Assembly (NCBI GenBank): GCA_003244185.1
Contig: QHBT01000009.1
Span: forward strand, 1 to 64,000
Source: Candidatus Dormiibacter spiritus
Lineage (GTDB): Bacteria > Chloroflexota > Dormibacteria > Dormibacterales > Dormibacteraceae
Length of the DNA stretch: 64,000 nucleotides
Direction of reading: 5' to 3'
Position numbers and translations under genes: made by a program. How positions within the stretch are numbered: the first letter of the stretch is position 1; the number at the start of each line of letters is the position of its first letter. Positions 12,115-57,757 of this stretch are shown here, in pieces. Under the pieces are notes generated by a model. That model was not told where the DNA came from and did no database searches. It was given only the letters and a program-made list of their open reading frames with translations.

Positions 12115-12308
12115 TGGTGGAACTCCCGCGACCGCGCCATCGCCTCCAGATCGCGCTGCTTCCGCTCCGCCTGCTCGCGGTCTGGGAAGAAGAGGAAGTG
12201 TCCGCGTCCATGGACGTAATAGCCGCCTCCCTGGTCGCGGGTCACCTTCACCTGCGCCAGTTCCGCGTCGTAGACCTGGCCCGAGGCGGACACCTTGAGA
12301 AGCGTCAT
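12111..12308 (-). CDS. Small basic hypothetical protein (65 aa)
   Basis: A 65-residue protein with no recognised domain: an N-terminal beta-rich part (LLKVSASGQVYDAELAQVKV), an aromatic stretch (GGGYYVHGRGHFLFF) and a charged helical tail (DREQAERKQRDLEAMARS). ATG 12308 overlaps the TgpA-like stop by 4 bp (ATGA), and its own stop overlaps the CTG start of the MaoC-type gene. The coupling on both sides supports it as a real gene despite its size. The open frame continues to 12383 but only inside the transglutaminase gene. Confidence 0.6.
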   Translation of the reverse strand: MTLLKVSASGQVYDAELAQVKVTRDQGGGYYVHGRGHFLFFPDREQAERKQRDLEAMARSREFHH

Positions 12309-15848: not shown

Positions 15849-15938
15849 CGGCCGCCCCTCCCCGCCAGCCGACCCGATGACATCTCCTGGCGTCCCTAGT
15901 CGTGCGGCCGGTAAACCGTTGACATCAGCGCCGGCCGG

Positions 15939-31282: not shown

Positions 31283-32595
31283 CTGCGCGCCACCTCGCCG
31301 GCAGGCCGATAGCCCCACAGGTGGAGCGCGGCCAGCAGCCCGAGCAGCGCCCAGCCATGCCTGAAGTGGAGGACCTGATAGAACGTGGCCGAGGCGGCAA
31401 AGCCAAGCAGGGCGGCGATCAGGGGCACCCGGTTGGGCAGCGCCTCCGAATAGCCTGGCGCCAGTTCCCGAGCAGAGACTGCGCGCGCCCGAACCACCAC
31501 CGAGCCGACCAGCAGGAAGATGCCGGCGAAGCCGATCACGCCGCGCTCGACCAGCGCCTCGATGTAGTCGTCGTGAGCCTCGTGGACGAAGTTGGCCTGC
31601 TGCCGCCCCCGCAGGTTGTCGATGGTGGTGTTCGGTCCCAGCCCCCAAAGCCCGCCCTGATCGAGGAGGGCCAGGGTCTCGTTCACGAGCTGGGTGCGCT
31701 GGCCCAGGCTCTGGTCGGCCCGGCCGAAGGAATCGCGTAGAAGAGGCACATTGGAGGCTACGGCCCACGCCTGGATCTTCTGTGGCTGGACCAGGTTGAG
31801 CGCGGCACCGCCCATGAGAATGCCCGCGCACGCCAGCCCGATGGCACCCTGCATGCCAAAGCGCCGGTAACCCCAGCCGATGATGACAATGAAAGTGGCC
31901 AGCGCCAGGTAGAAGGCGCCCCCGTTCGAGCCGCTGAACACGATGCTGAGTGCCAAGGCGATGTAGGCGAGCACCCGCAGCGACCGGCGCGCCGGGTACT
32001 TGGTGGCGGCCACCACCATGGCCGACATGGACCAGTAGTTGGCAGCCATGTTCGGGTCGGCGAAGAGCATGCCGGCGCGGACCCCGAGGCGAGCGGTGAC
32101 ACCGGAGACGGCGTCGATGTGGCCGAAGTAGGCGACTACCAACACCCCGGCCCAGACCGGCGCCGCCACTGCCCAGGTCCTGATCACTACCCGGAACGCA
32201 TCGGGATAGCGGCAGATGTTGACCAGCGCCAGCACCCAGAGCATCAGCACCAGGTCCTGGGCGACGTCGAGCAGCGCAGGACCCGGGCGGCCACCCGCCA
32301 GCGCCCCGACCACGCCTCCGGCGATCAGTAGGGACCAGGCCCCCCAGTAGGGCGCGCGCAGCTTGATCCCCGACCAGCCTGCCCAGAGCAGGAAGGTCGC
32401 GATAGCGGCGGCGATCGCCAGATCCACCGGCGAGGAGTTGCCGGGTCCTGTCGGCCGGATCATCGGCAGCAGGATCACCGCCGCCTGGGCCGACAGCAGC
32501 ACCACGCGGGGCACTGAGGCGGTGCGCTGGTGCCGGGCAGCAAGCAGCTCGGCCGCCGGCTCGCTGCCAGACCCGACCCGGAGCGCGCTGATCAC
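31279..32595 (-). CDS. O-antigen ligase/Wzy-like polymerase
   Basis: A 438-residue integral membrane protein with ~11 helices and the periplasmic loop typical of the O-antigen ligase/Wzy superfamily, including FVHEAHDDYIEALVERG, where the conserved H-N/D-x2-(L/I)-(E)-x2-x-E-x-G pattern occurs. It would polymerise undecaprenyl-linked repeat units supplied by the fused flippase. GTG 32595 overlaps the stop of the 54-residue membrane protein. Confidence 0.82.
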   Translation of the reverse strand: MISALRVGSGSEPAAELLAARHQRTASVPRVVLLSAQAAVILLPMIRPTGPGNSSPVDLAIAAAIATFLLWAGWSGIKLRAPYWGAWSLLIAGGVVGALAGGRPGPALLDVAQDLVLMLWVLALVNICRYPDAFRVVIRTWAVAAPVWAGVLVVAYFGHIDAVSGVTARLGVRAGMLFADPNMAANYWSMSAMVVAATKYPARRSLRVLAYIALALSIVFSGSNGGAFYLALATFIVIIGWGYRRFGMQGAIGLACAGILMGGAALNLVQPQKIQAWAVASNVPLLRDSFGRADQSLGQRTQLVNETLALLDQGGLWGLGPNTTIDNLRGRQQANFVHEAHDDYIEALVERGVIGFAGIFLLVGSVVVRARAVSARELAPGYSEALPNRVPLIAALLGFAASATFYQVLHFRHGWALLGLLAALHLWGYRPAGEVARR

Positions 32596-32756
32596 AGCCG
32601 CAGCCCGACCATCGCCGAAACCAACAGCACCATGCCGCCGGCCAAACCGGCCCACAGTGCGGTGCCCAGCCAGGTCCGCACCAGCGCGGCACGCCGCCGG
32701 CGGCGGACCGCGCGCAGGCGCGCCTCGAAGCTGTCGCCGGCGGCCTCAGAGCGCAC
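32592..32756 (-). CDS. 54-residue single-pass membrane protein
   Basis: A short protein: an Arg-rich cytoplasmic N-terminus (SFEARLRAVRRRRRAALV) and one helix (about residues 30-52) ending at GLRL. No family recognised. GTG 32756 overlaps the stop of the MBL-Rieske gene by one base, and its TGA overlaps the polymerase GTG, so it is held in the operon by coupling on both sides. It could be a small subunit of the polymerase or flippase assembly. Confidence 0.55.
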   Translation of the reverse strand: MRSEAAGDSFEARLRAVRRRRRAALVRTWLGTALWAGLAGGMVLLVSAMVGLRL

Positions 32757-34354
32757 TACTCGATCCGCGCCGTCCGGCCGGCTGTCTGCAGTTCGGCCAG
32801 AGGCCGTGTGAAGAGTGGGTCGCAGCGGGCGTTGAGGCAACTTCCCGTCTTCAGGTCGAACTCCAGGTTGTGGCCGAGGCAGCGAATGACGCCGTCCACC
32901 ACCGTGCTGCCGATGGCGAGATCCTCGCCCGCGTGGGGGCAGTAACGTGCGATTTCGTAGTTGCCGTGCTCGGAACTGACGACTATCTTCTCGTCGTTGG
33001 CCCGGCCCAGCTCATACTTCTCGACAGCCGACAGGGCCTGCTCGTCGGCGTGCTTGAGCAGGCCGATCAGGTAGTCGTTGTAGATGTCGGGGTCGCGCCA
33101 GGCCTGAAAGCGGAGGGAGAGGAAGAAGTCTTCCCAAGCAATCTTGCCGTCCATGACCGGGGCCAACCAGCGGGGATCAAGCCGGAAACGATAGCCGACG
33201 TCGGCCGTACCGCCACCGAGGTCCACCTTGACGCCGGGGGGCCGCAGGTGGACATCCCAACGACCCTCCATCTCGCCCACCAGCTCGAAGCGGACTGTCA
33301 TGTCGATCCGCTCCAGAAAGTAGGGACTGAGTTCGCCGAGCCGGCGAAAGTGCTCAACGAACTTGTCCGCCAGCTCGGGCCCGGGGGTCGGGTGGGCGGC
33401 CCGAAAGGCCTCGATCTCCGGCAGGCGGGCCTCGGCATAGGAATCGATGTAGGAATCGGCGTCGTCGAACCGAAAGTCCGCCCACTGCGGGTCGCGCAGA
33501 AGCTCCTTGGCCAGCGGGTCGTACCTGTCGCCGGGCATCCATTGCTGAACAGTCTGGTTGGGCAGACGGGTGCTCAGGAAGTCGGCCGCTTGCTGCATGT
33601 CGGGGAAGATGCCTGGGGAGCGAATCCAGCGGTTATGGTGCTGCAGCTCCGGGTCCAGGAAGCACATTGGGCCGGCGAAGGGCACAACTAGCTCCGGCTT
33701 GACCATGCGGACGAGCTGGCCGACCGCCTTGAACTTGCCATTCCGCTTCATGGCCGAGATCTGCGCCATCTCCTCGGCCGGGTACTCGTAGCAGATCGGG
33801 TGCCAGGACGCCCCGGACATCTGGAGCGGCATGACGTCGATCCGGCCGCCGCACTCATGGGCCGCCCGCCGGGCCTGGCCGACGGTCAGCCGGGCGTCGT
33901 TGCAGTGCAGCAGCGAGGCGCCGCCCAGAGAGACCAGCACGGCAGCGTCGTGGCACATCGGCGACTGCTCCGTGATGAAGGTCAGCCAGTCGCCCCGCTC
34001 TGTCAGCTGGAAGCGCTCCCAGGCGGGGACCTCGATCAAGCGCTTCACGCCCGCCCGACGCAGCCGTTCGGCCACGTTGTCCGAGGGATACTTGGGGGTC
34101 AGAACGACAGTCCGGTCGGGCAGGCGCCCGAGCACTGACTCGTCGAGGTGGTCCAGATGTTCGTGGGAGACTGTCACGTACTCGACGTCGAGCAGCCCAC
34201 GGTGGTCCAGGTGAGCGTTGCTCGGGAACTGATACCAGGCGGCGAGGAAGGCGCCTCGAGGAGAGAGCCAGCCGTCCATCAAAATGCTCACGTCGGGCCC
34301 GTCCACGCGCAAGCCGGCGTGGCCGAGGTACGTGATCTGCATCGAGTCGTTCAT
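32756..34354 (-). CDS. Metallo-beta-lactamase-fold protein with C-terminal Rieske [2Fe-2S] domain
   Basis: A 532-residue protein. The N-terminal MBL-fold domain carries TYLGHAGLRV and the metal motif VSHEHLDHLDES (HxHxDH), resembling UlaG/CMP-sialate-hydroxylase-type lactamase folds. The C-terminus is a Rieske domain: ARYCPHAGEDL (C-x-H) and VIRCLGHNLEFDL (C-x2-H). CMP-Neu5Ac hydroxylase joins the same two modules in the reverse order. In an EPS operon an oxidative sugar modification is a reasonable inference, but no substrate is known. ATG 34354 overlaps the GT4 stop (ATGA). Confidence 0.82.
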   Translation of the reverse strand: MNDSMQITYLGHAGLRVDGPDVSILMDGWLSPRGAFLAAWYQFPSNAHLDHRGLLDVEYVTVSHEHLDHLDESVLGRLPDRTVVLTPKYPSDNVAERLRRAGVKRLIEVPAWERFQLTERGDWLTFITEQSPMCHDAAVLVSLGGASLLHCNDARLTVGQARRAAHECGGRIDVMPLQMSGASWHPICYEYPAEEMAQISAMKRNGKFKAVGQLVRMVKPELVVPFAGPMCFLDPELQHHNRWIRSPGIFPDMQQAADFLSTRLPNQTVQQWMPGDRYDPLAKELLRDPQWADFRFDDADSYIDSYAEARLPEIEAFRAAHPTPGPELADKFVEHFRRLGELSPYFLERIDMTVRFELVGEMEGRWDVHLRPPGVKVDLGGGTADVGYRFRLDPRWLAPVMDGKIAWEDFFLSLRFQAWRDPDIYNDYLIGLLKHADEQALSAVEKYELGRANDEKIVVSSEHGNYEIARYCPHAGEDLAIGSTVVDGVIRCLGHNLEFDLKTGSCLNARCDPLFTRPLAELQTAGRTARIE

Positions 34355-35529
34355 GCGGTAGTAACCTCACTGAGCCGAACCGCTGGAGCGTCACGGTGCT
34401 CCTCGAGCAGCTGGGAATAGGTTTCGGCCAGGTCGCTGCCGAGCTGAGCCGGGTCGAAGCGATCGTGGACCTGGGTCCGAGCCCCCGCCGCCAACCGGGT
34501 GCGTTCCTCCGGGTGGTCCAGGAGGTGCCCGATAGCTCGCGCGAGCAGGGCCGGGGCGCCGGCGGGAACCAGGATGCCGGTTCTGCCGGGAACTACCAGC
34601 TCGGGAACCGCGTTGACGGCTGTCGCCACCACCGGCACGCCAGCGGTCATCGCCTCGGCGATCGAGCACGGCAGGCCCTCGTAGAGGCTGGACATCGCGA
34701 AGACGTCGAGTCCCGGGAGCAGGTAGCCGACGTCGCGGCGCTCACCCAGAAAGAGGAAGCGATTCTGCAGCCCGCGGCGGCCGGCCAGCTCGCGCATGCG
34801 TCGCTCCAGAGGGCCGCCGCCGATCCAGACGAATCTGGCGTCGGTCCGGCCGAGCCTCTGGAAGGCGTCGAGCATGTGCTCGGGCGCCTTCTGGCCGGCA
34901 AGCCTGCCCACCGTACCCACCACCGGCGCGTCTGGCCGGACGCCCAGGCGCCGGCGCGCCTCCGCGCGTGACGAAGGGTTGGCGGCGACGATACTGCTGG
35001 TGTCGATGGCGGGCGCGATCACCCGCAGCCGCTCGGGGGAAGCGATCCCCAGTCGAACGGCGTCGGCCGCCACATTGGCTCCCACGGCCAGGAAGCGGTC
35101 GGTGTGGCGGCCGAGACGGCGCTCGATCTCAATGTAGGTTCGGCGCATGATCGGCATCTGGAAGTCGTGGAAGGGGAAGCCGTGAAAGGTGTGGACGGTG
35201 GCGCGCACGCCCGCCCGCCGCGCCGCCATCCGGCCCAGTGCACCGGCCTTGGCGCTGTGGGTGTGGACGACGTCCGGCCGCAGCGTGGCCAGCTCGTGGG
35301 TTAGCTCGTGCAGGCAGCGGAGGTCCTCGCGGGGATTGACCTCCGGCCGCAGGTGCCGTAGGCGCACCACTTCGAAGCCGGAGCGCTCAGCCTCGGCCAG
35401 CAGCGGGCCGCCGTCAGCTGCCAGGATGCTGACCCGGTAGCAGTGGGGGTCCAGTGCCTGGGCGCCCCGCAGGGCGACGCCTCCGGCACCCGCGATGAAC
35501 CGGGTGACGATCTGCGCGACGTGGATCAT
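34351..35529 (-). CDS. GT4-family glycosyltransferase
   Basis: A 392-residue GT-B enzyme. The N-terminal domain has VVHTHSAKAGALGRMAARRA and the C-terminal domain has VGTVGRLAGQKAPEHMLDAF, FVWIGGGPLERRM and the nucleotide-sugar site SLYEGLPCSIAEAMTAGVPV (E-x7-E type). It transfers a sugar to a growing lipid-linked oligosaccharide on the cytoplasmic face. It overlaps the dehydratase stop by one base and the MBL-Rieske start by four. Confidence 0.92.
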   Translation of the reverse strand: MIHVAQIVTRFIAGAGGVALRGAQALDPHCYRVSILAADGGPLLAEAERSGFEVVRLRHLRPEVNPREDLRCLHELTHELATLRPDVVHTHSAKAGALGRMAARRAGVRATVHTFHGFPFHDFQMPIMRRTYIEIERRLGRHTDRFLAVGANVAADAVRLGIASPERLRVIAPAIDTSSIVAANPSSRAEARRRLGVRPDAPVVGTVGRLAGQKAPEHMLDAFQRLGRTDARFVWIGGGPLERRMRELAGRRGLQNRFLFLGERRDVGYLLPGLDVFAMSSLYEGLPCSIAEAMTAGVPVVATAVNAVPELVVPGRTGILVPAGAPALLARAIGHLLDHPEERTRLAAGARTQVHDRFDPAQLGSDLAETYSQLLEEHRDAPAVRLSEVTTA

Positions 35530-37031
35530 CAGAAGTCATCTGGGTAGTAGGCGGCCATCGAATCAGTGGTCGTCGACATCGGGCGGCCCACTTCGGGGAA
35601 CCGCTCGGCCAGAATCTTCCTCACCTCGTGCATGCGGTTGCGCTGGGCAACTTCGCAAAGCCGGTCTAAGTAGGTGCCCAGCTCGGCGTCCGGTGCCCTG
35701 CGAACCGTGGCCCAGATCCGCGGATGAAGTGTTGTCACGTGCTGCTCGGTCTCGCTGAAGAGCGTCTCGTCGAGCTTCTCACCAGGCCGCAGCCCGGTGA
35801 AGACTATGTCCAAGTCATCCTCGACGACGTGCATCAGGGCAGCCGTGTTGTGGACCAGGTCGAGGATCTTGACCGGCTTGCCCATGTCGAGCACGAATGT
35901 CTCGCCCGCGTTGGCGAGCCCGGCCGCCTCGATCACCAGTCCCACAGCTTCCTCGACGGTCATGAAAAACCGTGTCATGTCGGAGTGCGTCACGGTGATC
36001 GGCTCGCCGTTCTGGAGCTGGTCGGTGAGAACGTTGAGAAAGGAGCCGCGGCTGCCCAGAACATTGCCGAAGCGCACGGAGGCGAACTTGGTCGGGGGGC
36101 GTGCATTCATCTCGACGATCATCTCGGCCAGGCGCTTGGTCGCCCCTAACACTGATGTGGGGTCGGCCGCCTTGTCGGTGGAGATCAGGATGAAGCGCTC
36201 AGTGCCGAACTCGCGCGCAGCGTCCACCAGCCAGCGGGTGCCCAGCACATTAGACTTGACGCCCTCACACGGGTGCAGCTCAAGCAGCGGCAGGTGCTTG
36301 TGGGCCGCCGCGTGAAAGACGACCTCCGGTCGCCAGTGCCTGAACAGCTGTCGGATGCGATCGCGGTCACGGATGTCGGCGATGATGAGCTCGGGGTTGT
36401 CAAGCAGCGCCTTGCCGGTCAGCTCCATGAGCATCCTGTGCAGGTTCGACTCGTCATGGTCGAGCATCAGCAGCCGGCTGGGGTCGAAGCCTTTGATTTG
36501 GCGGCAGAGTTCGCTACCGATTGAGCCGCCGGCGCCGGTGACAAGGACTCGCTTGCCCTGAATCAACTCCCGTGAGTCGGAGCGGACCACATGCAGCTCG
36601 TCCCGACCCAGCAGCTTGTCCACCCGCATCCTGCGGAGATCTGAGATGCGAGCGTCGCGCTCGATGGCGGCGCCGAACGAGGGAAGGTATCGAACGGAAA
36701 CAGCCGCCGACGCAGCTGCCTCGGCCAGCCGGCGAATCTCGGCATTGCTGAGCGACGGGATGGCTATGATGACGGCCGCGATGGAGTGCCGGTGGGCGAC
36801 TTCCGCCAGCTCGGCGGTCGTACCGACGATCGGCAGTCCGTCCACCTCCTCGGCGAACGCGTTGTCGTCGAGAAAGCCCAGCGGCTCAAGGCCCAGCTCG
36901 GGGCTCCTCAGCAGGTCCCGGGCGAGAACCTGGCCCGCCTCACCGGCGCCCACGATGAGCGTGCGCAGGCGGACTCGGTGGCGGGGTCGGGTCAGCAGTG
37001 GGATATCCGGGTCGGTGACGGGTTCGATCAT
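35529..37031 (-). CDS. FlaA1/CapD-like nucleotide-sugar dehydratase, soluble form
   Basis: A 500-residue protein with a CoA-binding-like Rossmann domain (TLIVGAGEAGQVLARDLL) and a C-terminal SDR dehydratase (RVLVTGAGGSIGSELCRQI, HAAAHKHLPLLELHP, ISTDKAADPTSVLGATKRLAE). These are marks of UDP-GlcNAc 4,6-dehydratases, which make 4-keto-6-deoxy sugars. The usual N-terminal membrane helices of CapD-type proteins are absent. The product would feed the DegT aminotransferase encoded just upstream, giving a 4-amino-6-deoxy sugar. Confidence 0.9.
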   Translation of the reverse strand: MIEPVTDPDIPLLTRPRHRVRLRTLIVGAGEAGQVLARDLLRSPELGLEPLGFLDDNAFAEEVDGLPIVGTTAELAEVAHRHSIAAVIIAIPSLSNAEIRRLAEAAASAAVSVRYLPSFGAAIERDARISDLRRMRVDKLLGRDELHVVRSDSRELIQGKRVLVTGAGGSIGSELCRQIKGFDPSRLLMLDHDESNLHRMLMELTGKALLDNPELIIADIRDRDRIRQLFRHWRPEVVFHAAAHKHLPLLELHPCEGVKSNVLGTRWLVDAAREFGTERFILISTDKAADPTSVLGATKRLAEMIVEMNARPPTKFASVRFGNVLGSRGSFLNVLTDQLQNGEPITVTHSDMTRFFMTVEEAVGLVIEAAGLANAGETFVLDMGKPVKILDLVHNTAALMHVVEDDLDIVFTGLRPGEKLDETLFSETEQHVTTLHPRIWATVRRAPDAELGTYLDRLCEVAQRNRMHEVRKILAERFPEVGRPMSTTTDSMAAYYPDDF

Positions 37032-38257
37032 CGGGTCAGCTCCAAATGCAGGTCGCCGGTCGTGGCACGCGACTGCTCGCTCAAGCCGGCGATCTCGGAA
37101 CAGACGCGCTCGACCTCGTGATCGCCCAGGCTGGCGAAGAAGGGCAGGGACACGATCCGTTCGAAGACAATGTCGGCAGCGGGGAAGGCCCTCTCCAGGT
37201 CCGGACCGAGCAGCCGCTGAAAGTGTGGCTGGTGATGGAGCGGGATGAAGTGCACCGAGCAGTCGATTCCGCGTGCTGAGAGGCGTTCGATCAGGGTGTC
37301 CCGGTCGAGCCCGAACTCAGGTTCGACCTGCACAACGTAGAGGTGCCAGGCATGGCGGCCCGTCGCCGGCCGGGCCGGCAGGCGGATCCCGGGCACGCCG
37401 GCCAGGCCGGCGTCGAAGATCGCTGCAAGCTCGGCCCGGCGGGCTTGCCAGGAGCCAAGGTGGCGCAGCTGGGCTCGGCCCATCGCCGCCTGAAGGTCAG
37501 TCATGTTCGCCTTCAGTCCATCGCTTTTGACCTCGTAGCGCCAGCTGGCCCGGCCCGGCAGATAGCGGCGCCAGGCGTCTGCGCTCATCCCGTGGAGCCG
37601 CAGCTCACGCGCCGCCGCCGCGACGGCCGGAAGGTCGGTTGTGAGCATGCCGCCCTCACCGATCGGCAGGTTCTTCGTCGCGTAGAAGCTGAAGCACGTC
37701 GCGGCGGAGATCGTGCCCACCGGCCGCGCACCCGCCCAAGTGCCGATCGCATGCGCGGCGTCTTCGACCACCCGGCTGAGCGGTAGCCCGGCCGCCTCTG
37801 CCAGCTCCTCGACGGGGGCCGGCTGGCCCGCGAAGTGGAGCGCCACCATGGCGTCGGCCCCCCCGGCGCGGCGAACCGCCGCCCGCGTCGTGGCCGCGTT
37901 AGGCATCAACGTCTCCGGATCGACGTCGCAGAGCACCGGCACCAGACCGGCCCGGGTGATCGCGTGGACTGCGCCGCAGAAGGTGACCGTCGAAGTGAGT
38001 ACCCGGCTGCCAGGCGGCAACTGCAAGGATCGCAGGCCGATCTCGATCGCCGCGGTGCAGGAGGACACAGCCACGGCGTGGCGCGCGCCGACGTGTTCCG
38101 CGAACTCACGCTCGAACTCGATGACCTCAGGTCCGGAGGTGATCCAGCCTGAGGCCAGGATCCGCTGGGCCGCCACCCGTGCCTCGAGACTGATCTCGGT
38201 CCGGCAGAAGGGGATCCGCAAGGGGACCGGGCGCCCAACCTCGACCGGCGCGCTCAC
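37028..38257 (-). CDS. DegT/DnrJ/EryC1/StrS-family sugar aminotransferase
   Basis: A 409-residue PLP enzyme. SSCTAAIEIGL is the phosphate-binding region, VVEDAAHAIGTW carries the Asp contacting the pyridine nitrogen, and FSFYATKNLPIGEGGML contains the Schiff-base Lys. It aminates keto-sugar nucleotides, most likely the product of the adjacent FlaA1-like dehydratase. It is coupled to both neighbours by 4-bp overlaps (GTGA, ATGA). Confidence 0.93.
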   Translation of the reverse strand: MSAPVEVGRPVPLRIPFCRTEISLEARVAAQRILASGWITSGPEVIEFEREFAEHVGARHAVAVSSCTAAIEIGLRSLQLPPGSRVLTSTVTFCGAVHAITRAGLVPVLCDVDPETLMPNAATTRAAVRRAGGADAMVALHFAGQPAPVEELAEAAGLPLSRVVEDAAHAIGTWAGARPVGTISAATCFSFYATKNLPIGEGGMLTTDLPAVAAAARELRLHGMSADAWRRYLPGRASWRYEVKSDGLKANMTDLQAAMGRAQLRHLGSWQARRAELAAIFDAGLAGVPGIRLPARPATGRHAWHLYVVQVEPEFGLDRDTLIERLSARGIDCSVHFIPLHHQPHFQRLLGPDLERAFPAADIVFERIVSLPFFASLGDHEVERVCSEIAGLSEQSRATTGDLHLELTR

Positions 38258-39588
38258 CGCTCTACCGTCCGTGAGCTCTCGGCCAAGGCGACGGTGGGGC
38301 TCAGCTCGGTCTCCTGGCGGTGCCCGTTGCGCGGCGAGCTCGGCAGGCCGGCGGCGCCGTATGTAATGACACCGAGCACCGGCCAGCGCGACAGCCGGAT
38401 CAGGTCCATGAGCGGCTGCAGCTCGACCTTCTTCAGGACCTCGGGGGCAAGCACCACCAGCCCGACTGACCAGTCTCCGTTGGGGGCTGGGTCCGAGGCA
38501 CCGTAGGACTGGACGGCCAGACTCGAACTGTCCGCCGCCGCGACCGAGCGCTGGAGCCGCTTGGCCAGCGTCGGGATCCCGTCGGTAGTCGGCGCCCCGA
38601 TCAAGCGAACTACGCTGACGCCGGCGGCCTGCGCGGCCAGATGAAGGCGCTGTGTAAGCGGCGCTGGGAGGCTGGTAAAGACCGCCGGCGACCCCCCGTC
38701 GAGATGGCCGATGACCGGCACCCCGAGCAGGTCGGCCAGAGCCCGACGGCCGATCAAGGTCGGGCGGAGGACCTCCATGATGGTTGCCAGGGCGACGCCG
38801 GCCACTAGGCCCAGCAGGCCGCCGAGCGCCAAGTCGACAGGCAGTTGCGTGCGGTCCGGCGAACTCGGCGGGGTGGCCTGCTGGATCACCGCCGGCGACT
38901 GGGCGCCGCTGTTCTGGAGCAGCGCGTCGCGCTGGGTGTGCAGGTTTCCAAGCTCCTGAACCAGGCTGCTGCGCTGCTGCTGCAGTCCGTTCAACTGGTT
39001 GGTCACGATCTGGATCTGAAGTGCGATGGCACCCTCGTTCGCCGGGCTGGCAGGGACGTCGCTCAGGGAGGCGAGTTTGTTGTTCAGATCCGCCGTCCGC
39101 GTGTCGATGTCCACGATCGCTTGGGAATCGGCATCGATCTGCCTTTGCAGGCCGGGCAGTTGGTCGGCACCCCGGCTGTTGCTCACGCGGGTAAGAAGCA
39201 GGTCGTCCGCCAGCCGATTAGCGAGCGTGGCGGCCACGCTCGGGTCGGTATCGGTGACGCTGAGCTCCACCACGCCGGACGAGCCGAGGGGCTGGACAGT
39301 AATGGCCTTGGTGACTTCGGGCACTGTTCGATTGACGTCGGCCACGTTGATGGCGGACTGGACGTGACTGGGGCTGGTGACAACTGCACGCGCCGTATCC
39401 GCGATGGCTACCGCCTGGGCGGGGTCCTGCGGGTCGGGTGTCCCGAGTTGGACGCGACTCGCGGCCGTGTACTTGACACCGCCGGCAAAATAGACGCCAG
39501 AGGCCAGCGCTAGGCCGAGCAACACGAGCGCCGCAATCAGTTTCAGATGGCCGCGCAGAATGCGATTAGCCGCTTCGTTAAGTTCCAC
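38254..39588 (-). CDS. Wzz/Wzc-like chain-length determinant without kinase domain
   Basis: A 444-residue protein with an N-terminal helix (about residues 17-36), a long extracytoplasmic coiled-coil region (VSNSRGADQLPGLQRQIDAD and onward), and a second helix (about 240-260, LALGGLLGLVAGVALATI). The cytoplasmic C-terminus (PTLIGRRALADLLGVPVIG onward) resembles the region leading to a BY-kinase, but lacks a Walker A. It would set polymer length. GTG 39588 is chosen because it begins the Wzz domain (VELNEAANRILRGH), with AAGG just upstream; the longer frame has no plausible N-terminus. First gene of the EPS operon. Confidence 0.85.
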   Translation of the reverse strand: MELNEAANRILRGHLKLIAALVLLGLALASGVYFAGGVKYTAASRVQLGTPDPQDPAQAVAIADTARAVVTSPSHVQSAINVADVNRTVPEVTKAITVQPLGSSGVVELSVTDTDPSVAATLANRLADDLLLTRVSNSRGADQLPGLQRQIDADSQAIVDIDTRTADLNNKLASLSDVPASPANEGAIALQIQIVTNQLNGLQQQRSSLVQELGNLHTQRDALLQNSGAQSPAVIQQATPPSSPDRTQLPVDLALGGLLGLVAGVALATIMEVLRPTLIGRRALADLLGVPVIGHLDGGSPAVFTSLPAPLTQRLHLAAQAAGVSVVRLIGAPTTDGIPTLAKRLQRSVAAADSSSLAVQSYGASDPAPNGDWSVGLVVLAPEVLKKVELQPLMDLIRLSRWPVLGVITYGAAGLPSSPRNGHRQETELSPTVALAESSRTVER

Positions 39589-39874
39589 AACCTTAACCTT
39601 GCCGCCGCCCCTTGGAGAAGAAAATGGGGATTGCCAGCCGCCCGGGCGGGGCGGTCCCTGAGGGTCTAGGTCATTCGCCCATGTCCAGGTCCAGCGCGCC
39701 TCAGGCTTCGACTGGCAGCCGGGCGGCAAGTGTGACGCGAATTGGCTGAGGGCTAGGCCGGTCGCCTCCCACCCCGCCCAGACCCATCGGGGACATAAGC
39801 CCAGAGTGGGCTGGGACGCCGTCCCAAGCCAGGTCGGCTAGCGCCGGTCAGCACCTTCCGCGTTTGACGCGCAA

Positions 39875-40888
39875 TCAGACTGGCTGGCGGTTGATCCATT
39901 GCAGGGCGGCAACGTGCCCGGCCTGGTCGGCGAGGTTGCCGTCCTGGTAGTCCCAGGCAAAGATCCAGTAGCCGCTCGCGCCCTGGTGCTGCCAGTGCTC
40001 GAACTGAGTTCTCAGCTCCGCCGGGCTCGGCCACCGCCAGGAGGAGGCGTTGAAGTCCTGCAGTATGAACTCCCACTTGGCAACACCTGCCTGATGTATG
40101 CGGTTGACCGCCTGGTCGATCATTCCGTAGTCGCAGGGGCCCGACTGGCAGGGGTAGACGTCGAAGGCCAGCACATCCACGGTGCCGTTCATAGGCAGGC
40201 CGGCCGGCCAGTGACCGGTATCGGGGTCGTTGAACTGGTCGTCCGCCACCCAGGTCTGCGCGCGGGGGTCGGCCGAGTGCACCAGCCCAGTCAGGTGCGA
40301 GTAAACAGGGGCTGCAGCGCAGCCGTTGGCGGTCGGCTCGTCGCCGATCTGGTAGGTCAACCCACCATAGCCGGAGCGGACGTTGTCAGTCACGACCGCA
40401 ACGATGGCAGCGTCGCTCATGGTCTGCTGGCAGGAGCGATTGTCATAGGCGGGTACCCAGACCATGCCGTTCAGTCCCGCCGCTGCCTCGGCCTGTCCCA
40501 GGCTGGCAACGCCGCCGTCGGTCGCTGCGTTGAACCCGGCTGCCGCCATAGCCCGCCAGGCTTCCGAGTTGAACCGGTACACCCCCCGCCGGGCGGGCGC
40601 AGAGGTCGACCGGGCAGGCGCAGAGGTCGACCTGGCACCCGCTGACGGCTTCGCCGCGCCGGGGCGGGCGCCGGCTGCCCGAGGAGCGAGTTGGACGGCC
40701 ACCGGGGTCGGCGATGGAGACGTCGCCGGGTTGGTCTCGACCTCCGGCCGGTCGGCCACAGACAGGCCGGCGCGCTGCGGGGCGCTGGGCGGCTCGACCC
40801 CAGCGGTCGACGAGCAGCCGGCGGCGGCCAGCGCCAGACCTATCGCCCACATAGCCGGCTTTCGCAGCGAGCCCGGCAAGCCGCTCAC
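39875..40888 (-). CDS. Glycosidase-like lipoprotein, paralogue B
   Basis: A 337-residue lipoprotein with the lipobox in LALAAAGCSS and a linker containing two tandem copies of ARSTSAP. The folded part closely parallels the protein at 22237-23145: GVYRFNSEAWRAMAAAGFNA, YQIGDEPTANGC, TWVADDQFNDPD, VLAFDVYPCQSGPC, FILQDFNASSW, GYWIFAWDYQ. The conserved acidic and Cys positions suggest the same barrel and activity. GTG 40888 is the start. It stands alone, ~290 bp from the Wzz-like gene. Confidence 0.75.
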   Translation of the reverse strand: MSGLPGSLRKPAMWAIGLALAAAGCSSTAGVEPPSAPQRAGLSVADRPEVETNPATSPSPTPVAVQLAPRAAGARPGAAKPSAGARSTSAPARSTSAPARRGVYRFNSEAWRAMAAAGFNAATDGGVASLGQAEAAAGLNGMVWVPAYDNRSCQQTMSDAAIVAVVTDNVRSGYGGLTYQIGDEPTANGCAAAPVYSHLTGLVHSADPRAQTWVADDQFNDPDTGHWPAGLPMNGTVDVLAFDVYPCQSGPCDYGMIDQAVNRIHQAGVAKWEFILQDFNASSWRWPSPAELRTQFEHWQHQGASGYWIFAWDYQDGNLADQAGHVAALQWINRQPV

Positions 40889-41334
40889 CTCGCTCTCACG
40901 CTCTGCGGAACGCGTCGCCTCACGACGAACGAGCCGGCCCGCCCCGCATCGGTGACTGCGTCGGCGAAGAACCGGTCTCCCTTCACCCTGATTCTCATCC
41001 AGCTCGCACTCATGCAACCTCCCGACCGGCCTCGAACGCCCCCCGCAGCCATAGCGGCAGGAGATTCGAGCCGGTCCTTGCTACCCCCTGGACGGCGGCA
41101 CCGAGCCGGGCGCACGCCTGTCGGACCGTTCGTCTCTGGTGGTCGCCTAGCCTGCGGCAATCACAGCACAGATGTCAAGCCATGACCCATGGTCGCTCGG
41201 GCTCGACTCGATCACCAGCCGGAGCGATGCTGGGACATGGCCTCGCGCCGTTGCGGGGCCGTGGTTGGCAGCGATCGCCCCCCGCAGCAGCGAGCAGCGG
41301 ACCAGCCCGTTGCCGCTGAGGCCGGGATTGGGCG
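40889..41334. other. Intergenic region between lipoprotein paralogues
   Basis: About 445 bp. No supported gene, RNA or clear repeat was seen; open frames on both strands lack ribosome-binding sites. It contains the upstream region of paralogue B. Confidence 0.4.
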
Positions 41335-42213
41335 TCAGCCGGTCGTCGTGAAGGGGACCCGGTTCTCAGTCGCCAGCTGGGCCACATTGTCCGGGTAGCT
41401 GCTGAGCTCGGTGCTCTTCCAGTGCCAGCTGAAGACCAGGTAGCCGGTGGCTCGACTGGCCCGCCAGAGCTGCCATTGATGGGCCAGCTCCGCGGCGGAC
41501 GGAAGCCGGTAGTAGTCGTCCTGGAAATCCTGCAGCACTGCCCAGTACGGCACGTGGAGCCGGTCGATGGCGGCGATGGCATCGGGGATCAGGTTCCAGT
41601 TGCAGCCGTTGGCGAAGGAGCAGGGGTAGACATCGATCGCAATGATGTCCACGGTGCCCCGCCAGGGTGCATAGGGGAACCGCTCCCCGGTCCTGGGGTC
41701 GTACTCCTGGATCACAGTGAAGGTGGGCCTTGCGTCGAAGCGGTGGACAAGCGCAGTGCGGGCGCGAAACTTTGCAGGTCCGCCTGGACAGGCCGAGACT
41801 AGCGGCTCGTCACCCAGGAAGAAGGCGCCGATGGCGGAGTGGCCCCGGATGCCCTGCAGCAGCCTGACCACCGTGTTGTCATCGCGTTCGAAGGTGCACG
41901 AGTCTTTCTTCCAGCCGCCAAGCCAGACGAATGCCTTGGCGCCGGCCGGCAATGCGTCGAGCTGGCTTCGGTCGGGGTTGACGTCAAAGGTGTTGAACCC
42001 GGCCTGCATCTGCTTGCTGTGCCCGTCAGGTGAGCCATCCTTGCCGTACACGCCACGGACCAGATAGCCAGCGGCGGCCGGCGAGACCGCAGCGGCGGGC
42101 CCCGCTGGAGCACCGGGCGTGGCACCGCAGGCGAGAGTGAAGACACCGGCCAGGAGCGCCGCCAGCAGGCCGGCGAGCCGCCCATGACAGCTACGCAGCT
42201 GGGGGCACCGCAT
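41335..42213 (-). CDS. Glycosidase-like lipoprotein, paralogue C (divergent)
   Basis: A 292-residue lipoprotein (lipobox in GVFTLACGA) from the same family as the other two but clearly divergent: GVYGKDGSPDG instead of GVYRFNSE, FFLGDEPLVSACPG, VDIIAIDVYPCSFANGC, AVLQDFQDDYYRLPS, GYLVFSWHW. The LGDEP and DVYPC motifs are kept. The ATG overlaps the RtcB-like stop by one base (TGATG), so it is co-translated with the RtcB/HprK-like pair rather than standing alone. Confidence 0.72.
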   Translation of the reverse strand: MRCPQLRSCHGRLAGLLAALLAGVFTLACGATPGAPAGPAAAVSPAAAGYLVRGVYGKDGSPDGHSKQMQAGFNTFDVNPDRSQLDALPAGAKAFVWLGGWKKDSCTFERDDNTVVRLLQGIRGHSAIGAFFLGDEPLVSACPGGPAKFRARTALVHRFDARPTFTVIQEYDPRTGERFPYAPWRGTVDIIAIDVYPCSFANGCNWNLIPDAIAAIDRLHVPYWAVLQDFQDDYYRLPSAAELAHQWQLWRASRATGYLVFSWHWKSTELSSYPDNVAQLATENRVPFTTTG

Positions 42214-43781
42214 CAGTTGAGGACGGCGATCGGGCGGAGCCGCGCCACCGGGCGGACCAGACGCTCAGCGACCATGATTTGGAGGCCCTCGTCGACGCCC
42301 CGGTTGTCCAGGTGTTGGACCACCTTGGCATCGTCACTGTCGTAGCTGTAGCGCAGTGTCGCCCGGCCCTGGGGATCCGGCCCGGAGAGCCCACGGTTGG
42401 CGAAGTCCTTGACGATGCTACCGGTGCCGTGGCAAGCCGTGTGCAGGCTCGGCCGTGACTCGTTGGTCCCCACGCAGAGGTAGGAGCAGGTCCGACTGGT
42501 CCCCGGGACCAGCACCGGCTGGCCTGTCACCGAGAAGATCGGGTGGGCGGCCATCAGTTTGGGACCGTAGGCGCGGGAGGCGTTGTGGCGGTGGACGATG
42601 GCCGTGCGCCCGTCGACCTCCTCCTCGTAGATCGAGTTATGCGGAGAGTCGACGATCAGGCGGCTTCCTGAGCAGAGGTGCTCGCGCGCCAGCCGGCGCA
42701 GGCTCGCATAAGTGGCCTGGCGGAACGCGAAGCCGTAGTTCATGGCCACCGCGCGGGACAGCATCAAGCGACGGCCCTCCTCGCTGAAGCGCTCCACCGG
42801 CGGACAGCCGTCGCCGAAGTAGAGCTGCAGGCGCAGGCGCAGTTGCTCAAGCGAGCGGGCAGTGGCCAGGTGGTAGGCCGGCTTCTGCAGGAGCATCACT
42901 TTCCGGAGCGTGCTGTTGACTTTCTTCCGCTTACCGAACAGGGCCCCCATGGCGCCGGCCAAAGGGCCGCCGCCGTTGTGGTACTGGAGCGTAATCTGGC
43001 CCTGGTGCAGGCCCAGTCGGGAAGCGGTGTCTCCGTCGAGCACCTCCTCGACCTCCTGCAGCTCCAGGAAGTGGTTGCTGGGGCCGATGGTCCCAAAGCG
43101 CATGCGCGACAGCTGCGTCAGAAGCCAGGGCAAGTCGTCGCGGACGCTCTGGGCGCCGCCGTAAGGGGCAAGGTCGAGCTGCCCCCCCTCCTCGATGCGG
43201 GCGATGTCGTCAGGGTCGGCTGCCCAGCGGTCCATCGCGAAAGGTGCGCCCTCCACCGCGGAGCGCAGCACTTCCTCGTGGGTGAGCTCCAGGCGGCGGC
43301 TTGGCGGCACCGGGTACCGGCGCCGGGCGGCGCCGTAGAACGCGTCGACCGCCGTTCGCTTGGGCCGCTCGCCGTCCAGCGCGATCAGGGCCATGCCGCA
43401 ATTTACGGAGGCGCTGGTCAGGGTGGGCCGGATGGTGTCTCGGGTGGCTACAGCGATGCTCGACGGCATCTCCATGTTCTGCTTGTGAAAGAAGTCGGGC
43501 AGCACGACGGGAGGGGCCGCGAGGTCGGCGTCGCGCAGCCCCTCGGCAAGGACGGCGAGGGCCTCCGGCTCAGCCGGATGGTCGAGGCTGTCGTAGATCC
43601 GCGGCCGTTGCAGGTCGCGCTTGGGGTCGTGCCCATGGCCGTGGTCCCAGTGGTCACTCCGGCCGTTGCCGCCGTCGTGATCGCAATCGAGCAGCGCCCC
43701 AGGCGCTGGCACGGCGCTGCGCTGTGGGTGGTGGATGCGAGTGAAGCTTTCGTCTCCCGAAGTTGTGGAGTCGATATTCAA
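42213..43781 (-). CDS. RtcB-like RNA-ligase homologue with altered metal site
   Basis: A 522-residue RtcB-fold protein. Equivalent motifs are SVNCGMALI (metal Cys128), GTIGPSNHFLELQ (His237), ITLQYHNGGG (His268), DSPHNSIYEEE (His381), HRHNASRAYGP and ACHGTGS (His451, the residue that carries GMP in RtcB). The Asp ligand expected three residues before Cys128 is Ser125. The N-terminus has a His-rich stretch (HDGGNGRSDHWDHGHGHD, within 35-52) not found in standard RtcB. The TTG start overlaps the HprK-like stop (TTGA). No tRNA or RNA-repair gene is nearby, so its substrate is open. Confidence 0.82.
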   Translation of the reverse strand: MNIDSTTSGDESFTRIHHPQRSAVPAPGALLDCDHDGGNGRSDHWDHGHGHDPKRDLQRPRIYDSLDHPAEPEALAVLAEGLRDADLAAPPVVLPDFFHKQNMEMPSSIAVATRDTIRPTLTSASVNCGMALIALDGERPKRTAVDAFYGAARRRYPVPPSRRLELTHEEVLRSAVEGAPFAMDRWAADPDDIARIEEGGQLDLAPYGGAQSVRDDLPWLLTQLSRMRFGTIGPSNHFLELQEVEEVLDGDTASRLGLHQGQITLQYHNGGGPLAGAMGALFGKRKKVNSTLRKVMLLQKPAYHLATARSLEQLRLRLQLYFGDGCPPVERFSEEGRRLMLSRAVAMNYGFAFRQATYASLRRLAREHLCSGSRLIVDSPHNSIYEEEVDGRTAIVHRHNASRAYGPKLMAAHPIFSVTGQPVLVPGTSRTCSYLCVGTNESRPSLHTACHGTGSIVKDFANRGLSGPDPQGRATLRYSYDSDDAKVVQHLDNRGVDEGLQIMVAERLVRPVARLRPIAVLN

Positions 43782-45031
43782 GCTAGTACCTCCAACCGAG
43801 AAGGCCGGGCTTCGGCCGACTTAAGCAGCTGTCCCAACCGCGCTCCGGGGCGGCGGCCGAGCGTAATCTCGAGGCAGCGCAGGCGGGCCGCGAAGCGCCG
43901 CCCAACCTCCGCGATGGGGGGATGGTCCGGTCCGACTCCGGTACCTGCGCTCAACGTGGCCGCGAAGGCCCAGTAGCGGCGCAGCTCGCCGGCGGCGTAG
44001 GTGCCGGTAACGAGGGCACGCGCGGCCAGCTCGGCCTCGCAGGCTCTCACCGACGCGGACTCAGCCAAGCTGCGACGCAGCACAACTAGCATGTCCGGCT
44101 CGAGAACGGGCACGCGGCCGCCGAAGTCGACCTCGCCGCGCCCACTGGTGGTGCGCCGGCCTCGAACCTCGACGCGCAGCGGCTCCACAAGGCCCCAGAC
44201 CGAGCTGCCGTCGCCGACGCCGATGTTATCGGAGGTGGCCGCGCCGCCGGCTGCTATCTCGCGGAGGAGGAGTGTCGACTTGCCGACACCGGCGGGCCCA
44301 GCAACCAGCGCCACTCGAGCACCCACGGTGCAGGCGGGCGCGTGGAGCGGGACCCGGCCGCGCGCGCCGGCGGACCAGAGAGCCGGGTATTGGCCCAGCA
44401 CGGCGCGGGTGAGCAATTTGGCGCGCACCCGCAGCAAATTGGTGGCGAGCCGGACTTGCGGCCGCGGTCGCCAGCGGAAGTCGAAGATCGGCGCGGCCGA
44501 CCCGGTCGTAACCCGCAGGTCGAAGCCCGAGCTGCAAACGTCCTCCATGATCACCTGGCCGTCGCGCAGCCACGCGCCTCGGGTCAGTGGCTCCCGGCCA
44601 TCGACCTCGAAGGGCCGGTGACTGCGCTCAATCCTGACTCGGACGGTCGGCTCGTGACCAGGCCCTCGAATGAGATCGGATCCGGCCATCTCCTCCAACA
44701 GCCGACATGCCCAGGGCAGCTCCGACTCGAATCCGACCCGCTCGCCAGCGGTGTTCAGGGTGGCCGTCCAGGGCAGTTCGTGCGAGGTGCGATGCGCCCT
44801 GGGCGCCCGCAACTCAGACCAGCGAACGCCGCTCAACTGTCTAACCCGCTCCCACTGACCAGTGACCCAGCGCTGTGCAGGGCACGACCCAAAGAGCAGC
44901 CAGGCAGGCGCCGGCGCGGACCGCGGAGAGCGATGCGGGGCCGACTCTGGCAGTGACGATGGAGCGCGCGACTTCTCACGGGGGCAGAGCATAGGCTGGC
45001 GTTGGCCGGGAAAGAATGGGCGACACGCCAC
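43778..45031 (-). CDS. HprK-like P-loop protein
   Basis: A protein of up to 417 residues with the P-loop VALVAGPAGVGKSTLLLREI and, downstream, GGAATSDNIGVGDGS at the position of the HPr-kinase catalytic/Walker B region, where HprK has an Asp. It resembles the HprK-related kinases found in polysaccharide and peptide-modification clusters rather than true HPr kinase; no HPr gene is visible. The N-terminal ~70 residues of the open frame look non-homologous, so the real start may be well inside (for example ATG 44992 or later). It is coupled to the RtcB-like gene. Confidence 0.7.
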   Translation of the reverse strand: MACRPFFPGQRQPMLCPREKSRAPSSLPESAPHRSPRSAPAPAWLLFGSCPAQRWVTGQWERVRQLSGVRWSELRAPRAHRTSHELPWTATLNTAGERVGFESELPWACRLLEEMAGSDLIRGPGHEPTVRVRIERSHRPFEVDGREPLTRGAWLRDGQVIMEDVCSSGFDLRVTTGSAAPIFDFRWRPRPQVRLATNLLRVRAKLLTRAVLGQYPALWSAGARGRVPLHAPACTVGARVALVAGPAGVGKSTLLLREIAAGGAATSDNIGVGDGSSVWGLVEPLRVEVRGRRTTSGRGEVDFGGRVPVLEPDMLVVLRRSLAESASVRACEAELAARALVTGTYAAGELRRYWAFAATLSAGTGVGPDHPPIAEVGRRFAARLRCLEITLGRRPGARLGQLLKSAEARPSRLEVLA

Positions 45032-45177: not shown

Positions 45178-46083
45178 TTAGGTCAAGCCGGATGCCAGCA
45201 AGTCACCGACGCCGTCTCGCGTGACACCGTCCCCCCGCCAGAACGCCCGCCGCATACGCCACAACCCCAGCAGGTCCTCTGCCACGGTGCGACGGATGAC
45301 AACTCGCGAGTCGAGATCCTCCACCCAATCGACAGGCACCTCGAAGATTCGCATACCGTTCCTCTCAGCCAGGAGCAGGAGCTCGGTGTCAAAGAACCAG
45401 GAGCAATCTTCGACCAACGGCAGGAGCTTGCGAGCGGCCGACGCCCGGATCGCCTTGAAGCCGCATTGCGCATCGCTGAAACCGGCCCCGAAGCCGGTTC
45501 GAATCAGCCCGTTGTAGCCGCGGGAGAGCACCTCTCGTTTTAGCTGGCGCGTCACCCGGGCGCGCGGGGCGAGCCTCGTCCCGATGGCCACGTCGCTGTG
45601 CCCCGTCAACAAGGGGGCGAGAAGAGGCAGGAAGCTTTCCAAATTAGTGGACAGGTCCACGTCCATGTAGCTGAGAACGTCGGCATCGCTGTTCAGCCAG
45701 GCGGTCTTCAGTGCCAGACCCCGACCCTTGCGGTCGAGATGAATAGCCTCCACGTGCGGGAGGGTATCCGTCAAGTGCTGGGCGGCCAGCCAGGTCTGGT
45801 CGGTGCTCGCATTGTCAGCGATGACGATCCGCCAGGCGACGGGGAGCTGGGCCTCGAGATATGCCCAAAGCCGGTGCACGCTGGACGAAAGCGCGCGTTC
45901 CTCGTTGAAGACGGGGATGACGACGTCGACCACGGCTGTCTTGGCCGGTCGGCCACTGGCCAGGTCCCGAGCCCAGCTCGGGGCCAGGAGACGGCCGGCT
46001 GTCAAGCGTGCGGCTGTGGGAGCCCCCGGGGCGGACCTCCGCCTGGCATCGGTTGGTCTCAGCCCCCGTCTCTTCTTACTCAT
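45178..46083 (-). CDS. GT2-family glycosyltransferase (DPM/Alg5-like)
   Basis: A 301-residue GT-A enzyme: VDVVIPVFNEERAL, VIADNASTDQTW, SYMDVDLSTNLES (DxD) and GFSDAQCGFKAIRA, the pattern of polyprenyl-phosphate glycosyltransferases of the dolichyl-phosphate mannose/glucose synthase type. No C-terminal membrane helices. ATG 46083 is preceded by CAGGAG at a good distance; the frame upstream of it is not credible. It would make the polyprenyl-phospho-sugar donor used by GT-C enzymes such as the one encoded at 49623-51497. Confidence 0.9.
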   Translation of the reverse strand: MSKKRRGLRPTDARRRSAPGAPTAARLTAGRLLAPSWARDLASGRPAKTAVVDVVIPVFNEERALSSSVHRLWAYLEAQLPVAWRIVIADNASTDQTWLAAQHLTDTLPHVEAIHLDRKGRGLALKTAWLNSDADVLSYMDVDLSTNLESFLPLLAPLLTGHSDVAIGTRLAPRARVTRQLKREVLSRGYNGLIRTGFGAGFSDAQCGFKAIRASAARKLLPLVEDCSWFFDTELLLLAERNGMRIFEVPVDWVEDLDSRVVIRRTVAEDLLGLWRMRRAFWRGDGVTRDGVGDLLASGLT

Positions 46084-46553
46084 TGCTCCTGGCTCACTGC
46101 CGCCTGACCACCTCCCGATGCCCGAATCACCTGCCAGGTGAGCTAGATCAGGCCCTCCCAGCTGATCCCGCACCCTCTGCTCCGCCAATATCGCTGGCCC
46201 GGAGGATCAGTGCAATGGGACTCCTTGCACTCTGGGCGAGACATTTCTCCACTGACCTAGACAAGTCGTAGCGCGCTGTCGGGACAAGGCCTAAGCACAG
46301 GTGGTGCGGATGTCCCATTGGCTATTGGTGCCCGAGATTCCATACTGACATCGATGCTCCAATCAGGCGGCGTTCGCGTGCGCGCTGACGCCACGGTAAA
46401 GCCTCGGACGCCGACATTCAGCCGACATTCAATGGTCGCTGCCCGCGCGCGGCCACCACGCCGCGCTGCGGGTTGATGACCATCTCCGCAGCCGAGATTT
46501 CGAGCCGGGATCTTATCCGCGCGTCAGTGTCTGGCACTGGATAAGCGTCCGCT
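46084..46553. promoter_or_regulatory. Divergent regulatory region between two glycan loci
   Basis: About 470 bp with no gene, separating the minus-strand GT2 from the plus-strand membrane-protein operon. Visible structure: a perfect 11-bp tandem duplication GCCGACATTCA at 46410-46420 and 46421-46431, and a bulged hairpin at 46512-46545 ending 8 bp before the TTG start of the next gene. Several GTCCCATTG-like words occur (46210-46222 minus, ~46311 plus). Confidence 0.45.
46512..46545 (+). promoter_or_regulatory. Bulged hairpin just before the exosortase-like gene
   Basis: CTTATC (46512-46517) pairs with GATAAG (46540-46545) and CAGTG (46525-46529) with CACTG (46535-46539), with a 7-nt one-sided bulge and a 5-nt loop. 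It occupies the position where a ribosome-binding site would be. Confidence 0.35.
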
Positions 46554-57737: not shown

Positions 57738-57757
57738 GTATCGTCTCCTGGTTCCGA

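Follow-up and report, generated by a model that had tools for sequence, protein, structure and literature searches.

We analyzed a window of 64,000 nucleotides (positions 1 to 64,000 of contig QHBT01000009.1, assembly GCA_003244185.1) from Candidatus Dormiibacter spiritus, in which a gene for an RtcB-like protein lies directly behind a gene for a P-loop protein related to HPr kinase (HprK) within a cluster of exopolysaccharide (EPS) genes. The 522-amino-acid RtcB-like product is a member of the RtcB superfamily both by Pfam score (PF01139, 145.7 bits versus a curated cutoff of 27; E = 3e-42) and by fold, as its AlphaFold2 model (predicted local distance difference test score [pLDDT], 89) has the RtcB-GMP/Mn structure 4dwq as its best PDB match (Foldseek E = 6e-30). 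Its open reading frame (ORF) shares 4 bp (TTGA) with that of the HprK-like protein, and a glycosidase-like lipoprotein gene overlaps its stop codon by 1 bp. Both overlaps behind the translational coupling proposed in a first-pass annotation of this DNA are thus real, but the one with the lipoprotein gene is not conserved elsewhere, and we rejected the lipoprotein as a third member of the unit, as its family (cluster C12) is seldom found at that position.

The first-pass annotation also pointed to a His-rich segment added at the N terminus of the RtcB-like protein. This segment is present in the ORF but is specific to the genus; the congener Candidatus Dormiibacter inghamiae has 96% identity across the whole protein. 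Residues 1 to 48 of the model have a pLDDT below 50 and are predicted to be disordered. Codon changes in the 58-codon extension comprise 10 nonsynonymous versus 6 synonymous ones, compared with 10 versus 27 in the remaining 464 codons, so that the extension is weakly constrained, and we rejected it as a new domain.

A distinct RtcB-like subfamily

A scan of 84,980 species genomes recovered 65 loci carrying members of the same subfamily. The hosts, soil bacteria, are Actinomycetota (Streptomyces, Kribbella, Terrabacter, Amycolatopsis, Dactylosporangium, and others) and Dormibacterota/Chloroflexota, along with single metagenome-assembled genomes (MAGs) labeled Gemmatimonadetes and Acidobacteria. 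In a tree that included sampled canonical RtcBs, some from the same genomes, and left out RtcB2/PrfH types, the 63 subfamily sequences were monophyletic (ultrafast bootstrap support, 100) on a stem branch of 1.23 substitutions per site. A canonical RtcB is additionally present in 15 of 26 host genomes and absent from the other 11, indicating that the subfamily is not a stand-in for the canonical enzyme. In the genome of the window (93% complete), the RtcB-like protein is the sole PF01139 protein that we found, with neither the second, canonical RtcB considered in the first-pass annotation nor an Archease detected. An apparent intermediate RtcB in one genome (G602) proved to be a canonical archaeal-type RtcB and was set aside. 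We also rejected a mobile or phage origin, as plasmids and phages gave only RtcB matches of at most 34% identity and no close relative. As a separate observation, Dactylosporangium fulvum holds two canonical RtcB copies and an EPS-linked RtcB-like one, together with a third, divergent RtcB (L107, G315:C1:8338400-8341500) that scores 256 bits to PF01139.

Conserved pairing with an HprK-like gene

The HprK-like gene accompanies the RtcB-like gene in 55 of 63 distinct loci, in 52 cases as a called gene and in 3 by six-frame search. In the eight loci without a detected partner (L020, L027, L037, L054, L055, L056, L057, and L069), a contig end or stored end lies within a few kilobases of the RtcB-like gene. 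The HprK-like gene may stand directly before the RtcB-like gene, in which case it usually overlaps it (by exactly 4 bp in 11 loci); alternatively, a family 4 glycosyltransferase (GT4) gene lies between the two, or the HprK-like gene is found downstream, past a Wzz-like gene. Among 301 genomes of the phylum to which the window belongs (Chloroflexota), strong matches to both genes occur in the same five, with HprK-like scores of at least 238 bits and a next best score of 42 bits; the probability of such coincidence is about 5e-11 if relatedness is ignored. Among 296 Actinomycetota, both genomes with a strong HprK-like match also carry an RtcB-like gene, and two further genomes with an RtcB-like gene, fragmentary MAGs in which this gene lies on contigs of 9.6 and 14.2 kb, had no detected partner. 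Protein p-distances of the two families correlate across 50 loci (0.70), as expected of coinherited genes. Archease was found in 6 of 27 genomes, always adjoining a canonical RtcB gene and never the RtcB-like one.

Active site of the RtcB-like subfamily

We compared active-site residues between 60 to 63 subfamily sequences and 20 canonical RtcBs (that of Escherichia coli and 19 others), with Pyrococcus horikoshii RtcB (PH1602) aligned in addition. As the first-pass annotation had stated, the window protein keeps all His ligands (P. horikoshii His203, His234, and His329 are H237, H268, and H381) as well as the guanylylated His (His404, or H337 in E. coli, is H451). Cys98 (C128), D65 (D96), and the base-contacting residues F204 (F238) and E206 (E240) are retained as well. 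Where covered, the equivalents of D65, C98, H203, F204, E206, H234, H329, and H404 are invariant throughout the subfamily, and that of S385 is also kept.

The Asp that binds the second Mn (D95, D75, or D119 in canonical enzymes) is Ser125 in the window protein, again as first reported. This loss is not unique to the sequence: the position is Ser in 42 and Ala in 20 of 62 subfamily members, and Asp in none, compared with Asp in 20 of 20 canonical RtcBs. The Asp loss therefore marks the whole clade, whereas Ser125 itself is not special, Ala being equally accepted, and the His-rich region does not define the clade, being confined to one genus. Since the Mn on the alpha phosphate is bound by Cys98, His234, and His329 and that on the gamma phosphate by Asp95, Cys98, and His203 (PMC10630183), the alpha site is complete in the subfamily and the gamma site is short of one ligand.

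Further differences concern residues present in 19 to 20 of the 20 canonical RtcBs (E. coli R189, K299, R341, R345, and K407). In the subfamily, R189 is replaced by Gly (60/60), K299 by His (58/60), R341 by Thr, Ser, or Ala (Glu in one), R345 by Asp, Gln, Ala, and others, and K407 (P. horikoshii K480) by Asn, His, Thr, or Ser in 59 of 60 sequences, with a single one keeping Lys. The C-terminal KG is missing, E. coli Y380 is mostly Val or Ala, S380 is Thr, and the guanine loop PGSMGT reads PGT-N/H-RTS. N202 (E. coli N167) is Asn in 46 and Thr in 17 of 63 members. In turn, the subfamily has conserved residues of its own (R118, R226, R228, R285, R430, H399, and N400), and the five basic ones among these suggest a different anionic substrate.

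Mutants of canonical RtcBs indicate what such changes may entail. P. horikoshii D95A loses ligation and regains guanylylation of the RNA 3' phosphate with Archease, K480A is rescued by Archease and then uses ATP faster than the wild type, and N202A is inactive (PMC3973293). Human RTCB D119A shows weak guanylylation and no ligation (PMC10944509). Judging from D95A, K480A, and D119A, the natural subfamily sequence would resemble mutants in which sealing is lost but a phosphate can still be nucleotidylated. Although the subfamily shares its fold, its Cys and three His ligands, and its guanylylated His with canonical RtcB, we place it within the RtcB superfamily and, on residue comparison, outside the canonical RNA ligase family, as it lacks two defining features of the latter, the Asp ligand and the Lys/Arg set, and forms a long-branch clade found in EPS operons rather than with rtcA, Archease, or RNA repair genes.

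HprK/PEPCK-fold partner

The partner has the motifs of a P-loop protein (Walker A, AGPAGVGKST; SDN at residues 267 to 269, with D268 and N269; E283), and its invariant or near-invariant residues include H230, G248, G250, D268, N269, E283, R298, and E349. The family profile matches HprK of Lactobacillus casei (E = 9e-5), and the structure model (pLDDT, 84) matches PEPCK (Foldseek E = 2e-8) and HPr kinase/phosphorylase (E = 5e-5), with low TM-scores of at most 0.43. The window partner had no Pfam match and no NCBIfam match above the cutoff; HprK-related models score at best 43 bits against the family (cutoff, 200), and for a distant member, the nearest NCBIfam model is that of HprK-related kinase A. 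Weak subcutoff NCBIfam matches also led to the GAK, lasso-peptide, and SynChlorMet HprK systems, which we rejected, with no PqqD or precursor gene recognized. The partner thus belongs to the HprK/PEPCK fold group and not to the HPr kinase family.

With HPr kinase/phosphorylase and the HprK-related kinases A and B (TIGR04352 and TIGR04355), the partner shares the P-loop, a His before it, the Asp-x motif, and the Glu; unlike them, it has its own N-terminal domain, Asn for the second Asp, and two lineages with Arg for the Walker A Lys. The first difference in the motifs affects the conserved pair Asp177/Asp178 of HPr kinase/phosphorylase (Mycoplasma pneumoniae numbering; PMC11204831), whose second member is Asn in 52 of 52 partners. 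The Walker A Lys is retained in 36 of 51 sequences, including the window protein, and replaced by Arg (GxGRS/T) in 15, as a result of two independent gains on the tree, each kept within its clade (L018, L021, L026, L028, L043, L044, L049, and L050 in one; L019, L031, L033, L035, L062, L065, and L071 in the other). Therefore, the relation to HprK proposed in the first-pass annotation holds by profile and fold, but the label "kinase" should not be assumed. The partner plausibly binds nucleoside triphosphates (NTPs); that it also phosphorylates a protein or sugar is conjectural.

EPS cluster setting

The same synteny with EPS genes recurs across some 60 genomes, and no RNA repair genes were recognized in the RtcB-like loci. 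Clustering of neighbors together with Pfam annotation gave a recurring set comprising a DegT aminotransferase, a PglF-like dehydratase, a Wzz-like protein, GT4, an APH-fold kinase, Wzy, Wzx, and a phosphoglycosyltransferase. A histidine kinase and LuxR regulators frequently accompany this set, and formyltransferase-like, deacetylase-like, and beta-helix proteins do so in some cases. The APH-fold kinase family is present in 44 of the clusters, and the two most distant loci (L070 and L074) have fewer neighbors in common. The window contains the complete set at about 19 to 46 kb (Table 1): with Wzx, Wzy, a Wzz-like protein, a phosphoglycosyltransferase, glycosyltransferases, and sugar-modifying genes, it is a Wzx/Wzy EPS cluster, in agreement with the glycan rather than RNA repair setting first proposed. 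Actinomycetota Wzx/Wzy clusters likewise have the dehydratase, aminotransferase, GT4, Wzx, Wzy, Wzz, and phosphoglycosyltransferase genes but differ from the present ones, in which RtcB-like, HprK-like, and APH genes are added.

TABLE 1 Genes and features of the EPS cluster in the window
Feature	Position	Strand	Evidence and occurrence
APH-fold small-molecule kinase, ~348 aa	23156..24202	-	PF01636, E = 9e-19; longer ORF call, 23156-24778
FkbM methyltransferase protein with a domain like the small C14 protein	24199..25599	-	PF05050
Secreted beta-helix/fn3 protein	25563..29276	-	Cluster C10; related protein in 18 loci
Fused Wzy-like part, Wzx flippase, and phosphoglycosyltransferase (Bac_transf)	29273..32692	-	PF02397, PF01943, PF13440; cluster C0
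GT4 glycosyltransferase	34351..35529	-	PF00534/PF13439; relatives often adjoin the HprK-like or RtcB-like gene
PglF-like nucleotide-sugar 4,6-dehydratase	35529..37031	-	PF02719 and PF13727; in 50 loci
DegT/DnrJ/EryC1 sugar aminotransferase	37028..38257	-	PF01041, E = 7e-98; in 49 loci
Wzz-like chain-length determinant	38254..39729	-	Weak TIGR03007, TIGR03017, and TIGR01006 matches; family in 47 loci
Second, related glycosidase-like lipoprotein	39875..41017	-	Neighbor clustering
Glycosidase-like lipoprotein	41335..42213	-	No Pfam match; not conserved in other clusters
RtcB-like protein	42213..43781	-	522-aa ORF, conserved part at residues ~59-522; PF01139, alignments, structure
His-rich N-terminal extension, residues 1-58	43608..43781	-	Putative TTG start; genus specific
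HprK/PEPCK-fold P-loop partner	43778..45031	-	417-aa ORF; conserved domain starts at residue ~75-95
GT2 glycosyltransferase, upstream of the HprK-like gene	45178..46188	-	PF00535

Several other features of the window were observed. The 1,139-amino-acid ORF of cluster C0 apparently fuses Wzy-like, Wzx, and phosphoglycosyltransferase parts, which are encoded by separate genes in most relatives. The small C14 domain (L036:13148-13585; in the window, within the FkbM protein) has no Pfam match and adjoins or is fused to the APH-fold kinase or rides on the FkbM methyltransferase protein; perhaps it serves that kinase as a carrier or partner domain. Within the EPS cluster, positions 32756 to 34354 encode metallo-beta-lactamase-like and Rieske [2Fe-2S] domains, possibly of a sugar oxygenase or an enzyme like CMP-Neu5Ac hydroxylase. 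A run of sortase, DUF4397, and BcsB-like genes (56167 to 60732) may, with a GT2 gene at 48029 to 49630, form a second, cellulose-like polysaccharide locus beside the EPS cluster. Positions 12305 to 16943 carry an ordinary conserved MoxR operon, with consecutive genes for MoxR AAA ATPase, DUF58, and transglutaminase/DUF4129 proteins.

Possible role in EPS assembly

Conservation of the pair in relatives, a clade delimited by the Asp loss, and a glycan synthesis setting together give good support to the proposal that this is an undescribed system other than RNA repair. That the pair carries out nucleotidyl or phosphate transfer is what we infer from the residues and neighbors described above. The likeliest of the readings that we weighed, which we advance tentatively, is that an RtcB has here been repurposed as an NTP-dependent phosphate nucleotidyltransferase of Wzx/Wzy EPS assembly and is not an RNA ligase. 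A His451-linked nucleoside monophosphate (NMP) would be formed from GTP or ATP, the latter being possible as a donor because the guanine-contacting Lys is gone. The NMP would then be passed to a phosphomonoester on a sugar, a lipid-linked glycan, or a small decoration (X-P to X-pp-N), and the nucleic acid ligation step would be largely missing. The activated phosphate could be consumed by one of the transferases encoded in the cluster or react with a hydroxyl group of a glycan, yielding a phosphodiester. The APH-fold kinase, the HprK-like protein, or both may supply the phosphate; alternatively, the HprK-like protein may be an NTP-binding activating partner, as Archease is for canonical RtcB.

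The fold, the His nucleophile, the complete Cys/His/His Mn site, the EPS membership with a P-loop partner, and the loss of both the other Mn site's Asp and the basic residues of RNA ligases all support this nucleotidyltransferase role. Precedents for nucleotidylating a phosphate without sealing it exist in the capping RtcBs, namely, E. coli RtcB, which may halt at the capping step with DNA3'pp5'G as the product (PMC4499129), and Myxococcus xanthus RtcB3 (PMC10630183), although their substrates are DNA or RNA ends. The Archease-RtcB operon offers a further parallel, in that an RtcB gene is joined by a partner gene and Archease modulates nucleotidylation; it differs in that the partner here is an HprK/PEPCK-fold P-loop protein and Archease stays with canonical RtcB. 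Several points weigh against the proposed role: equivalents of D95 are required for efficient guanylylation when Archease is absent, 17 of 63 members have Thr in place of N202 whereas N202A is inactive (PMC3973293), and the degenerate P-loop of the partner, with Lys replaced by Arg in two clades, is a poor fit to a kinase. Moreover, much of this conservation would also be expected of a metal-binding pseudoenzyme that serves in structure or regulation, although the invariance of the His nucleophile and D96 disfavors this.

The second reading, less probable than the first, is that the pair is catalytically inactive or sensory, the two proteins forming a nucleotide- or metal-sensing complex that acts as a regulator or scaffold and gates the synthesis of EPS. 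Tyrosine kinases gate EPS synthesis together with Wzz in other systems, and a Wzz-like gene is present in 47 of the loci. The uniform Asn of the HprK-like protein, the Walker A Arg gained in two independent clades and then conserved, and the metal ligand lost from every RtcB-like member all fit this reading, whereas a scaffold would have no need for D96, His451, and the remaining four metal ligands, all of which are invariant where covered.

Next, and also unlikely, is a glycan phosphodiester ligase, in which the RtcB-like protein would make X-pp-N and itself seal it to the hydroxyl of a sugar or decoration with release of NMP, giving a polysaccharide with phosphodiesters. RtcB chemistry indeed joins a phosphate and a hydroxyl into a phosphodiester, and the cluster is equipped for phosphate chemistry (APH kinase, HprK-like protein, and phosphoglycosyltransferase); however, D95A abolishes precisely the ligation step in canonical enzymes (PMC3973293), and the basic residues nearly invariant in canonical ligases are gone.

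A phosphoesterase that uses the retained metal site to cleave a (cyclic) phosphodiester during processing of glycan precursors, echoing the 2',3'-cyclic phosphodiesterase step of RtcB, is quite improbable: the ligands of the alpha-phosphate Mn are all kept and neighboring gene products handle phosphate, but such an enzyme has no need for an invariant His nucleophile, and the RtcB step is itself GTP dependent according to a title cited in PMC4499129. Least probable of all is that the protein still ligates RNA or caps RNA ends, e.g., for tRNA protection under stress, and resides in the EPS island by chance, as PF01139 membership and the 11 of 26 host genomes, plus that of the window, without canonical RtcB are set against the co-occurring canonical RtcB in the other 15, the lost RNA ligase residues, and some 60 EPS contexts with no RNA repair genes or Archease nearby.

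Significance

In the literature cited here, all RtcB functions take place at RNA or DNA ends. We found no open-access literature joining RtcB with HPr kinase and EPS (subscription literature was outside the scope of the search) and, in a wider polysaccharide search, no relevant RtcB paper among those listed; the two papers naming both RtcB and HprK are unrelated, judging from titles and abstracts, and a term search of a study of the wps EPS clusters of Actinoplanes gave no HPr kinase, RNA ligase, or phosphotransferase. More broadly, and with somewhat greater reserve than for the enzymatic role itself, we hypothesize that polysaccharide assembly has taken over RtcB chemistry from nucleic acids, an HprK/PEPCK-fold protein having taken the place of Archease, and that this provides a previously undescribed route to glycan parts that are nucleoside diphosphate activated or phosphodiester linked. 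Automatic annotation of this subfamily as "RNA-splicing ligase RtcB" is probably mistaken. Its members are natural counterparts of the engineered mutants D95A and K480A and make the stepwise catalysis of RtcB testable in a natural enzyme. If our reading is true, glycan synthesis would for the first time be among the processes served by an RtcB, and phosphates on bacterial surface polymers would be activated or linked in a novel manner.

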